Source: Eubacterium sp. (GTDB lineage Bacteria > Bacillota > Clostridia > Lachnospirales > Lachnospiraceae). From it: a stretch of 64,000 nucleotides of DNA. The first letter of the stretch is position 1; every line of letters starts with the position of its first letter. Position numbers and translations under genes: made by a program. Below the pieces are notes generated by a model. That model searched no databases, was not told the origin of the DNA, and saw only the letters and a list, made by a program, of their open reading frames with translations. The stretch is taken from positions 1 to 64,000 of the forward strand of contig JAGBNF010000020.1 of the NCBI GenBank assembly GCA_017634555.1, in the 5' to 3' direction. Shown piece by piece: positions 18,753 to 25,241 of this stretch.

Positions 18753-19208
18753 TTATAAGCCTCTCTCTATGATTCGCTGTCTTATGATGGCTCTTCTGAG
18801 AGATGCCTCCGCCAAAGCAAATTCTGCAATACTTCTCTTCTGAAGCATTATCTCTCTTGCTTCCGCTTCTGCCCTGATTGCTCTTTCTTCATCGATCTCA
18901 TCCGGCCACTCAGCCGAATCGATAAGAATCATGACCTCGCCGTCCTCGATCAGCATCATCCCGGTGGAAACGGTTGCAACATATTCGGTATTAGGTTCCA
19001 TTTCCCTCTTACCTTTAATGCCATTTCCGTAGGAAATCTCACTGCTCGTGCGGAACTTGATGACACCCTCGGCAATAGCGATTGCCATATTCTGGTGTCC
19101 CGCCAAAACTCCGTACTCACCATCGATAGCGGGAATAACGATAGACTCTATATTCCCTTCAAAGAAAGGATTGTCTGCCTCATATATTTTACAATGAAAC
19201 GTGTTCAT
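18753..19208 (-). CDS. atpC: F-type ATP synthase epsilon subunit
   Basis: The start at 19208 (MNTFHCKIYEAD) has GGGAG 7 bases upstream; an ATG two codons earlier is too close. The 151-residue product has the N-terminal beta-sandwich (GEYGVLAGHQNMAIAIAEGVIKFR) and a C-terminal two-helix domain rich in Ala, Arg and Glu. It is the last gene of the operon. Epsilon joins gamma to the c-ring and can inhibit ATP hydrolysis. It has an insertion relative to the usual 135 residues around GNGIKGKREMEPN (near 58-70). Confidence 0.9.
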   Translation of the reverse strand: MNTFHCKIYEADNPFFEGNIESIVIPAIDGEYGVLAGHQNMAIAIAEGVIKFRTSSEISYGNGIKGKREMEPNTEYVATVSTGMMLIEDGEVMILIDSAEWPDEIDEERAIRAEAEAREIMLQKRSIAEFALAEASLRRAIIRQRIIERGL

Positions 19209-19271
19209 TATCATTCTCCCTTATAAAATGTATCCTTAACTCATACATTTCACAAATCATCTACAGTAAAC

Positions 19272-21564
<2,293 letters not shown>

Positions 21565-21595: not shown

Positions 21596-23401
21596 TTATT
21601 TACCGAAGCTCTCCGTAAACTTCTTTGAGATTTCGATAATATCACTCTTATCTTCATCACTCAGCTGACCTGTTCTGTCAAGCTTCTCACAGAGTGAACC
21701 TTCGTTCTCATGATAATGATTAAGCAGTTCTTCACGATACTTGTTGATATCATCAAGCGGAATATCCTGCATAAGATGTGCCGTAGCTGTTACAAGCAGG
21801 ATGATCTGCTCATGCGGCTTGAACGGTTTACTCTGCGGCTGACGGAGGAGTCTCATAAGTCCCTGTCCGTAAGTCAGCTGCTTTTTGGTCGTCTCGTCCA
21901 GATCACTTGAGAACTGTGTGAAGACTTCCATTTCTCTATACTGAGCAAGATCCAGTCTGATGGTTCCTGCTGCTTTCTTCATAGCCTTTGTCTGTGCGGC
22001 ACCGCCGACACGCGATACCGAAAGACCTACATTTACCGCAGGTCTCTGACCTGAGAAGAAGAGGTCTGACTCCAGGAATATCTGTCCGTCTGTAATAGAA
22101 ATGATATTCGTCGGGATGTATGCCGATACGTCACCTGCCTGAGTCTCAACGATAGGAAGTGCTGTTATACTTCCTCCACCGAACTCATCAGAGAGTCTTG
22201 CAGATCTCTCAAGAAGTCTTGAATGCAGATAGAATACGTCGCCCGGATAAGCCTCACGTCCCGGAGATCTCTCCAGAAGAAGACTCAGAGCTCTGTATGC
22301 TATAGCATGCTTTGAGAGGTCATCGTAAACGATAAGGACATCCTTACCCTTATACATGAAATACTCACCCAGTGCACAGCCCGCATATGGAGCAATATAC
22401 TGGATAGGTGCTGTCTCACTGGCAGCAGCGGATACTACGATGGTATAATCCATAGCTCCGTGCTTGGTCAGGTTACCAACGATCTGAGCAACGCTGGATG
22501 CCTTCTGACCTATGGCAACATAAATACATATAACGCCGTTACCCTTCTGATTAAGAATGGTATCGATAGCGATTGATGTCTTACCTGTCTGTCTGTCACC
22601 GATGATAAGCTCTCTCTGTCCGCGTCCGATCGGGAACATAGAATCGATAGAGAGAATACCTGTATTCATTGGTGTATCTACAGACTGACGCTTAACGATT
22701 CCCGGTGCAGGTGTCTCAATAGGACGATAACCGTCCGCATTTATAGGGTCCTTGCCGTCGATAGGATTTCCCATGGCATCGATAACTCTTCCGAGGAAAT
22801 CATCACCGACAGGAATACCGGCTGTCTTCTTGGTACGTCTTACACGGCTTCCCTCAAGAACGTCATCATCCTTACCGAAAAGGATAATACCGACATCATT
22901 AGCTCTGAGGTCCTGTACCATTCCCTTAATGCCCGAATCGAAAATAACTGTCTCACCGTACTCAGCGGAATCAAGACCAGTGGCAACAACGATACCGTCG
23001 CCGACAGTCTTAACGTGTCCCTCTTCCTCTGCGATTGCACCCAGTGACCACTCTTCAACAGAAGACTTGATAAGAGTTACAAGATCACGTCCATCCTCTG
23101 CAGGTCTGTCCAGATCATATCTGCCGTCTCCTGATGCAGAACCGCCTGTTCTGATTCCTTCAAGGAGATCTCTAAACTGTCCGAATCTTCCTTCCTCTGT
23201 CCAGTCATAGATATCATCATCTACAACGAGCTTGAAGCCCTTGCTAATGTTGTTATCCGGCAGCCATCTGAGCACTATGTCTTTCTTATATTTCTTAGTA
23301 AGGAAATCTGTGAAGCCCTTCTTCTGCTCGGCAGAAGGTTCTGTCTCAGCATAGATATAGCATTCCAGAGTCTCCTCAACATTCTTAGGCTCCTGTGCCA
23401 T
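21596..23401 (-). CDS. atpA: F-type ATP synthase alpha subunit with fused delta C-terminal-like domain
   Basis: The start at 23401 ([11 protein letters not shown]) has AGGAG 8 bases upstream and overlaps atpF by 17 bases. The protein has 601 residues, about 100 more than usual alpha. Residues 20-83 look like the C-terminal domain of delta/OSCP: residues 23-40 (starting SAEQKKGF) and then the glycine strand and [10 protein letters not shown] helix, matching the delta pattern of a strand followed by GRLERL. Residues 84-105 are a linker. The standard alpha then follows ([16 protein letters not shown] near 115), with Walker A GDRQTGKT at 268-275. No separate delta gene exists between atpF and atpA or anywhere in the operon, and the delta N-terminal helical domain is absent. 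The fusion call is from my own reading and needs a profile search. Confidence 0.88.
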
Positions 23402-23879
23402 TTCCTGTACTCCTTTCAGCACTCTTCAGAAAAGCATCATAAACATCGGTGGTCTCACTTGAAAGGATCATCTTGGCAGCTGCCTCTTCAACGATTCTTG
23501 TGATATCACCCTTAGCACTCTCAAGAATTTCAGCCTTCTCGATCTCTGCAGTCTTTCTTGCAGCTGCAAGGATCTCTGCAGCTTCTTCCTTGGCGGCTGC
23601 AGCCTGATCGCTGCGCATTCCGTCGATCTCAACGGATGCCTTCTTCTTCATATCTGCGATAGTAGCCTCTGCAGCACTGAGCTTTTCCTTGTACTCAGCC
23701 TCGAGGTTAGTCGCATTTGCTAACTTCTCTTCAGCATCCTCATCCATTTTCTTGTACTCTTCAGTACGCTTATCCATGAATTTCTTTACCGGTCCATACA
23801 GAAGAACATAGAGACCTGTAAAGAGAATAACGAAATTAAGAAGATGCAGAAGAATCTGCTGTATATCAATACCTAACAT
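23385..23879 (-). CDS. atpF: F-type ATP synthase b subunit
   Basis: This 164-residue protein has one N-terminal membrane helix ([22 protein letters not shown], residues 10-31) and then a long alpha-helical, Ala/Glu/Lys-rich stalk to the end, the normal b-subunit layout. It forms the peripheral stalk that holds alpha-beta still. Its C-terminus, which in other bacteria binds the delta C-terminal domain, would here meet the delta-like domain fused to alpha. No delta sequence is fused to this protein. AAGGAG lies 9 bases upstream of the ATG. Confidence 0.93.
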
Positions 23880-23958: not shown

Positions 23959-24354
23959 TTACATAACGAAAATTATAAGTATCGCAACGATGAGTGCGTA
24001 GATAACTACTGTCTCGATAAGGATAAGACCGAGCATGAGTGAACCTCTGATATCACCTGTTGCTTCAGGCTGTCTTGCGATAGCTTCTGATGACTTAGCT
24101 ACTGACATACCCATTGCGATAGCACCTGCAGCTGCTGCAAGTCCAACAACGAGAGCTGCACCAAATGCCTTACCGCTTACTGCGCTTGCATCTGCTGCTT
24201 CGTCTACAACCTCTGCTGCCTCAGCATCTGCTGTAACTGTGATCTGCTTCTTCTCTTCTGATGCACTAACCTTTGTAGCCTTTGTAAATCCACAAGCAGC
24301 TACTACTATAAGAAGAGCTATAAGTAATGTTGAAAGTTTCTTTGCAAGTTTCAT
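23959..24354 (-). CDS. atpE: F-type ATP synthase c subunit with signal-peptide-like extension
   Basis: Residues 62-131 are a standard c hairpin: a Gly/Ala helix, the polar loop ARQPE (93-97) and a second helix with the ion-binding Glu114 in LIETVVIYAL. Residues 1-60 are extra. They look like a signal peptide (KKLSTLLIALLIVVAAC, possible cleavage after VSA at 29-31, or a lipobox-like VAAC at 18-21) and a short Ala/Glu-rich linker. Ordinary c subunits are 70-90 residues, so the extension is real in the DNA: GGAGG lies 9 bases before this ATG and none is near residue 60. Thr115 and Tyr119 occur in sodium-type c rings, but the usual helix-1 Gln is Met81 here, so ion type is unclear. Confidence 0.92.
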   Translation of the reverse strand: MKLAKKLSTLLIALLIVVAACGFTKATKVSASEEKKQITVTADAEAAEVVDEAADASAVSGKAFGAALVVGLAAAAGAIAMGMSVAKSSEAIARQPEATGDIRGSLMLGLILIETVVIYALIVAILIIFVM

Positions 24355-24410: not shown

Positions 24411-25241
24411 TTATTTTTTCTTATTCTTCTTTTCCTTCGGCTTCTTCTCATGCTTCTCGGAAACTTCTCCGTAGAACAGTGACGCCAGCATCGTAAGAAC
24501 GTATGTCTGAACGAGTGCGTGGATCAGTGTGAAGAGAACACCTACAACTACAGGAAGCACAAAGCTGAGTGCCATATAATGGTAAACAAGCTCTGTAACA
24601 AGGGCTCCCGAAAGGAGGGCACCGAAAAGTCGGAAACTCATTGATATAGGAAGTGAGAACTCCTTGAGTGTAAGTCCGACACCCTTCAGCTTGTTTGAAA
24701 TGATACCACCCGAAAGAATTATGAGATATGTTGTAACACCCATCTGAATAGCTGCATTTATATCAGCGATAGGTGCAGGCATTGCTATCGAATGGCCATG
24801 TGTTGTAACTGCCTGAAGTCCCAGCAGCTCGAAAAGCGTACTGAAACATATATATGATCCCGCAGCAAAAATGTATGCTCCAAGGAACTTATTCAAATGC
24901 GGGCTGTTTGACTTTGCAAGATTATCGAAAAAGCCTACCCAGGCCTCGAGCACCATCTGGAACTTTCCGGGTACCTTCTTAAACTTAGGTATCACAAATA
25001 TCCTCAGGATAAGTGCAAAGAACAGTAATATTCCGGTAACAGTAAACGCCGATATCACGGCAGGATTTACTTCCATCCCGAAAAAATTAACCTTATAGCT
25101 ATCATGGACAACCGCATCTCTCATGACATCCTTTACAGACCCATGTTCTCCGCCTGTGTTCGTCAGTATGATGCCCACTATCAGCAGCACGCATACTATC
25201 GCGGCGATGACGAGAGTCGTCGTCCTTTTTTTCTTACTCAA
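24411..25241 (-). CDS. atpB: F-type ATP synthase a subunit
   Basis: This 276-residue membrane protein starts at a TTG with AAGGAG upstream; no ATG fits. It has five or six helices, and the essential arginine is in LPISMSFRLFGALLSGALV. The C-terminal helix (LFTLIHALVQTYVLTMLASLFYGEV) has the conserved Gln near the proton path. The extreme C-terminus is Lys-rich (KKPKEKKNKKK). It works with the c ring to carry ions. It is the first canonical gene of the operon; the usual atpI is not seen and a rhomboid gene sits in its place. Confidence 0.93.
   Translation of the reverse strand: MSKKKRTTTLVIAAIVCVLLIVGIILTNTGGEHGSVKDVMRDAVVHDSYKVNFFGMEVNPAVISAFTVTGILLFFALILRIFVIPKFKKVPGKFQMVLEAWVGFFDNLAKSNSPHLNKFLGAYIFAAGSYICFSTLFELLGLQAVTTHGHSIAMPAPIADINAAIQMGVTTYLIILSGGIISNKLKGVGLTLKEFSLPISMSFRLFGALLSGALVTELVYHYMALSFVLPVVVGVLFTLIHALVQTYVLTMLASLFYGEVSEKHEKKPKEKKNKKK

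Follow-up and report, generated by a model that had tools for sequence, protein, structure and literature searches.

A delta C-terminal domain fused to the alpha subunit of a Clostridia ATP synthase and its possible bearing on the number of peripheral stalks

The stator of F-type ATP synthases is treated as nearly invariant in design, with one delta subunit, one peripheral stalk, and one a subunit. In standard enzymes, the N-terminal helix region of alpha contacts delta (PMC12229609). Ueno et al. (2025; PMC12229609) removed the delta N-terminal domain (NTD) of the Bacillus PS3 enzyme and joined the delta C-terminal domain (CTD) to alpha, yielding a design called "delta-deltaN-alpha". In this engineered enzyme, the CTDs could hold as many as three b2 stalks and, with them, one a subunit per stalk, and an H+/ATP of 5.8 was reported. 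By SDS-PAGE the enzyme had about two stalks on average, and cryo-EM particles with zero, one, two, and three stalks accounted for 15, 51, 26, and 8%, respectively. The authors argued that the NTD, located on the threefold axis, limits the stalk number to one, and they named natural delta-alpha fusions without the NTD (Acidaminococcus fermentans, UniProt G4Q3K6, and A0A1I2C5T3).

Other departures from the standard arrangement have been described, including the natural b-delta fusion of mycobacteria and the N-ATPases, which are encoded by operons without a delta gene. Delta-less operons in Clostridia were listed already in 2017, and the text consulted there does not invoke a fused delta domain to explain them. 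A study of 62 rumen butyrivibrio genomes predicted all F0F1 subunits, delta among them, in every one (PMC4478896); those genomes are not shown to belong to the genus studied here. Within the text accessible from the literature searched, natural delta-alpha fusions are mentioned only in PMC12229609.

The window analyzed here, a stretch of 64,000 nucleotides from an Eubacterium sp. contig (JAGBNF010000020.1), contains a single F-type ATP synthase operon on its minus strand, in the order a-c-b-alpha-gamma-beta-epsilon. The operon has one a gene (atpB, 276 aa, 24411..25241) and one b gene (atpF, 23385..23879), the latter encoding a separate b subunit of 164 aa that has no delta part and ends in YDAFL. 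Subunits c (atpE, 131 aa, 23959..24354), alpha (atpA, 21596..23401), gamma (atpG, 20653..21564), beta (atpD, 19272..20660), and epsilon (atpC, 18753..19214) are also present, beta being named by sequence comparison among operons and by its place. No separate full-length delta reading frame was found in the operon, and because atpF and atpA overlap by 17 bases, atpH cannot fit between b and alpha, as an earlier sequence-only reading of the locus had observed.

Two neighboring features were recorded in their own right. The c subunit begins with a signal-peptide-like stretch and an acidic linker ahead of helix 1 (24175-24354, minus strand), an extension of a kind also found in 16 other operons (stop-to-stop frames of 127-159 aa), while the remaining 43 operons with a c row have c frames of 71-99 aa. 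Its glycine motif is altered, with AxAxAxG where GxGxGxG is expected; alanine motifs in c are known from alkaliphiles with larger c-rings. A rhomboid protease gene (PF01694, 25281-25937) lies on the same strand, 39 bases upstream of atpB, and was set aside; its product had no blastp match at the other 60 operon loci, some of which carry little or no sequence upstream of a.

The atpA product of 601 aa likely starts at the ATG at 23401, eight bases past a Shine-Dalgarno (SD) sequence, AAAGGAG, within the 3′ end of atpF (23410..23416, minus strand; anti-SD energy -8.2 kcal/mol), and an alternative in-frame GTG at 23422 is a less likely start. All parts of the fusion lie on the minus strand: the delta CTD, placed by profile matches at about residues 14-82 (23156..23362), a linker rich in glycine and acidic residues (23084..23155), and the retained N-terminal helix of alpha (23048..23083). 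The alpha within the fusion is complete, with the TIGR00962 (atpA) match beginning at profile position 5 and at residue 112 in GTG numbering, or about residue 105 if counted from the ATG at 23401. The alpha of one relative, L184, is 93% identical to it.

The similarity of the extension to delta is weak when a single sequence is used and decisive when profiles of its relatives are used. The OSCP profile PF00213 matched a 107-aa piece with an E of 6.5e-4 and 20.3 bits, under the curated cut-off of 22.3, and the whole fusion with an E of 0.013, also under the cut-off; the match was confined to profile positions 97-169 of 172, which correspond to the CTD. Six NCBIfam delta models matched the same piece with E values from 1.2e-4 to 0.19, all far below their cut-offs, and the best of these (E 1.2e-4) matched in its C-terminal part. 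A phmmer search of the PDB with the 93-aa extension alone (E<=1) returned no delta and only one unrelated chain, and a 151-aa stretch had no PDB match at a threshold of E<=1e-10, which makes that result little informative. Alignment by hhalign of the extensions of 49 relatives with 30 standard free deltas gave a probability of 93.1 and an E of 3.3e-7 over 72 columns, at delta columns 109-182. The profile of the 49 extensions matched 11 PDB sequences at E<=0.1, 10 of them delta-type (best E 9e-6): six deltas, one OSCP, one b-delta, one "multifunctional fusion protein" of b-delta length, and the engineered delta-alpha, all aligned at their CTD. The eleventh was an unrelated cassette protein (E 0.03). 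The delta NTD profile had no match in the window's frame. By these profile comparisons, the window's alpha is confirmed to be a delta CTD joined in frame ahead of a complete alpha, with the delta NTD missing. The identification made in the sequence-only reading is thus upheld by the OSCP positions, the hhalign alignment, and the PDB matches, and its profile comparison falls at the expected domain with a single-sequence score that stays under the curated cut-off.

Residues 23-594 of the window's protein are colinear with residues 15-574 of the engineered fusion chain 9jc1_I (E 5.5e-181; PDB 9jc1 is taken as the enzyme of Ueno et al. by its molecule name). Four other PDB chains outscore it but match the window only from about residue 106 or later. 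The engineered PS3 enzyme resembles the window in lacking the delta NTD and a free delta and in carrying the CTD on the alpha N-terminus; it differs in being designed, with the epsilon C-terminal domain removed and its stalks measured. The Acidaminococcus fermentans and UniProt fusions are like the window as delta-alpha proteins with the NTD missing, a comparison made by description only. The mycobacterial type is also a natural fusion involving delta, but there delta is on b, whereas in the window b is separate and delta is reduced to a CTD on alpha. N-ATPase operons share the lack of a delta gene, but their gene order begins with beta-epsilon, unlike that of the window, and the N-ATPase alternate-alpha model TIGR03324 scored 593 on the window's alpha, under its cut-off of 750.5. 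The delta-deltaN-alpha design and its natural cases are already known, and the window is a further case and not a first sighting, since natural fusions without the NTD are named in PMC12229609. New here are the wide distribution in Clostridia, the complete delta-alpha fusions, the scattered NTD loss, and a b-CTD-alpha frame; whole delta-alpha fusions and the b-CTD-alpha chain were not found in the accessible text of the literature searched, which is no proof of their absence from print.

A search of the window's assembly with PF00213 at E<=10 gave no match, not even to the window's own extension. The absence of atpH proposed in the sequence-only reading holds for the operon and, within a search of an assembly only 71.9% complete, may hold for the genome; relatives extend it. 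Within the genus, all 61 genomes matched a query of extension plus alpha, with an open frame of 580-627 aa in 57, shorter frames in three (252, 458, and 490 aa) in which the match still begins in the extension, and a match in the alpha core only in one, so that CTD-alpha can be seen in 60 of 61. Free delta of full length was found in 23 of the 61 genomes. It was absent from 18 of the 31 near-complete ones (completeness of 90% or more, contamination of 5% or less), including the single-contig genome G203, in agreement with the earlier claim. Several OSCP matches in the genus extend beyond a stop codon into the frame preceding the fusion, reaching profile position 28-45; in G203 the stretch so matched overlaps the b gene, and the other such matches are read likewise. 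Only one free-delta operon of the genus was inspected (genome G160, locus L145), and it represents a second ATP synthase lineage, distinct from the fused one. Outside the genus, seven genomes that are 94-99% complete (G043, G062, G068, G079, G109, G130, and G142) each have one atpA (E<=1e-100), which is a CTD fusion; their best OSCP matches have E values of only 8.6e-8 to 3.3e-5, and G079 has a second match.

The fusion was then placed among 200 genomes of the family, representing 199 genera and including the window's own, of which at least 45 carry a fused form of one kind or another, the window counted. Domain profiles classified 59 operons, from 60 operon regions taken from match lists and not as a random sample, into 30 with CTD-alpha, 12 with complete delta-alpha, 1 with b-CTD-alpha, and 16 with free delta. 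One of the 30 is a weak call (L133, E 7e-3), and one region cut at a contig end (L146) reads as CTD-alpha. The C-terminus of b follows the motif [YF][DEN]x[FY][LIFV] in 37 of 41 fused and 12 of 13 free operons having a b row, a count that excludes seven operons without one. Across the class, a CTD precedes alpha in an uninterrupted frame in 36 of 391 genomes (as read from a table of matches cut at E 1e-8) from 16 families, 27 of these being confirmed by domain profiles and nine by frame length alone. Matches by tblastn in Paenibacillus cellulosilyticus and Acetoanaerobium were rejected as fusions, delta and alpha being separate genes in both. Complete delta-alpha fusions of 679 aa with a divergent NTD were also seen in another family (L226, L227, L228, and L229); they sit on a separate, well-supported branch of the alpha tree and are possibly an independent fusion by their sequence placement.

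The most extensive joining was found in G068, a 96% complete genome in which b, CTD, and alpha form one frame of 787 aa (L130:2456-3400); it is the only genome of its genus in the collection analyzed, so the frame is documented in a single assembly. A 268-residue stretch of the frame matched Pfam ATP-synt_B (E 1.2e-18) and OSCP (E 2.2e-7), and the frame is the sole PF00430 match in the genome at E<=0.001. Because no stop occurs in b before alpha, every b made in G068 is joined to CTD-alpha. Between mid-b and the CTD, a TTG at frame residue 177, whose SD energy is a modest -5.9, is the lone in-frame start, and an ATG with an SD energy of -9.1 lies just past the CTD/alpha junction; judged from these start signals, the TTG may additionally yield some CTD-alpha, or the junction ATG some alpha. 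A different arrangement was seen in G071 (L133:2069-3040), where b is followed by a 324-aa b-like protein and then by alpha with a weak CTD. The b part of the 324-aa protein was confirmed by Pfam, and the two CTD-like repeats after it are a reading by eye.

The alpha tree was built by a quick IQ-TREE run from 109 core sequences picked by hand (56 CTD, 33 free, 19 complete, and 1 b-CTD), with weak deep branches (40 of 106 inner branches below 80% support). Every fused form but the long-branched L133 falls, along with 20 of the free ones, into a set of 95 rows (support 100) that stands apart from standard alphas. CTD-only and complete forms are intermixed on the tree, and well-supported neighbors differ in state (L105/L108, support 99; L107/L109/L191, support 95). 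The CTD-only state implies 14 changes, at least six of them forced by branches with support of at least 95, compared with 13 (six forced) for the complete state and seven (four forced) for the free state. The simplest reading of these sequences is that the whole delta was fused first and that the NTD was then lost repeatedly, an order preferred because regain of a lost delta NTD is unlikely. A first tree, rooted on one long-branched standard paralogue, had CTD-only forms as basal; this root was set aside because it requires NTD regain, which is an argument and not a test. Between the window and its nearest relative (L155), the CTD is under purifying selection, with a dN of 0.117 and a dS of 1.014, synonymous changes being saturated in four of seven CTD comparisons with the window. 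The ratio of N-terminal helix to core distances in alpha was 1.40-1.61 in free forms, 1.99 in whole fusions, and 2.05-2.28 in CTD-only forms, as raw distances that ignore kinship; helix relaxation is a weak candidate for a CTD-only trait, as whole fusions are almost equally relaxed.

These observations bear on how many stalks the natural enzyme assembles. The fused protein would serve as alpha and as the sole delta of the enzyme, and F1 holds three copies of alpha and thus three CTDs. Like its engineered counterpart, each CTD would provide a docking site for the C-terminus of a b2 dimer. The enzyme would then carry more than one peripheral stalk and a matching number of a subunits, with three as the maximum. 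Ions moved per ATP would increase as a subunits are added, giving a "low gear" in which ATP could be made at a weak ion gradient or, in genus members where Rnf is undetected, more protons pumped per ATP. A probability of about 0.6 is assigned to the reading in which the fusion is both alpha and the only delta, with more than one stalk and more than one a subunit per natural enzyme. The sequence-only reading had suggested that a covalent link replaces the contact between the delta NTD and alpha, which agrees with the CTD being fused to alpha and with the same design logic in PMC12229609. It had also suggested three delta-like domains for one stalk; the three domains stand, and one stalk is the less likely half, as the number need not be one, given the engineered equivalent with as many as three b2 stalks and an a for each.

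A single stalk would nevertheless result if one of the three CTDs binds b2 and the others are idle or stabilize the F1 crown, with space or the supply of b and a as the limit. This is possible but rather unlikely. By the same analogy, the engineered particles may count against several stalks, only 8% having had three, 51% one, and 15% none (PMC12229609), and a single a and a single b gene in the operon point the same way. Complete delta-alpha fusions in relatives also indicate that surplus delta domains are tolerated; these make up 12 of the 59 operons, and as three NTDs cannot share the axis, fusion alone is no proof of multiple stalks. The CTD-only forms, in contrast, are scattered over the alpha tree, which implies that the NTD, argued to hold the stalk number at one, was lost repeatedly, and a single stalk fits poorly with the engineered average of about two by SDS-PAGE (PMC12229609) and with the b-CTD-alpha frame of G068.

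A conventional enzyme with one CTD per F1 could also arise if proteolysis or internal initiation supplied alpha without a CTD. The glycine- and acid-rich linker of the window could be cut, and some relatives have in-frame starts near the junction, but those of L096 and L120, with strong SD energies, lie past the start of the alpha helix. When frames were screened for a start codon at most eight codons before or six after the native alpha start with an SD energy of -6 or better, 15 of 16 free frames had one (14 of them at -15 to -17) versus 3 of 45 fused frames, the latter with modest energies. Since the strong alpha start is lost in fused frames, and no in-frame ATG, GTG, or TTG was found within 25 codons of the window's junction, internal initiation offers no general escape, and such a mixture of alphas is improbable. 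Least credible by far is the idea of a vestigial extension alongside a normal delta gene at another place in the genome: while the window's genome is incomplete and full-length free delta occurs in 23 of the 61 genomes of the genus, the near-complete genomes without one, the separate lineage of the free-delta operon inspected, and the purifying selection on the CTD all argue against it.

The energy metabolism of the genus was also considered. RnfC was found in 22 of 61 genomes, and the free delta was used as a sign of a second, standard enzyme, of which the G160 operon is the one inspected. RnfC and free delta occur together in 19 genomes, with delta alone in four, RnfC alone in three, and neither in 35 (Fisher p 3e-9, ignoring kinship and genome incompleteness), and the fused enzyme occurs whether or not Rnf is present. 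In G160, the standard c shows the Q..ET..Y pattern associated with Na+ binding, and the window's c is without the Q. In species lacking Rnf, the fused enzyme may, on this gene content, act mainly as an ATP-driven proton pump. NiFe hydrogenase (PF00374, for Ech) gave partial matches in 2 of 10 genomes, on which nothing is claimed for hydrogen metabolism. An economy of two ions and two ATP synthases has been reported for Pseudobutyrivibrio ruminis.

The odds appear roughly even that multi-stalk ATP synthases are a normal and repeatedly evolved form in anaerobic Clostridia, arising by fusion of whole delta and then many losses of the NTD, which would clear the threefold axis and give a stalk and an a subunit per alpha, with the b-CTD-alpha frame of G068 as an end point, and that in the window's genus such an enzyme is near-universal, often apparently the sole F-type enzyme, and a low-gear proton pump. 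If true, evolution would have shifted gear by multiplying stalks, besides resizing the c-ring. Relatives with free delta, whole fusions, CTD-only fusions, and b-CTD-alpha exist side by side and offer natural comparisons for the function of the delta NTD.
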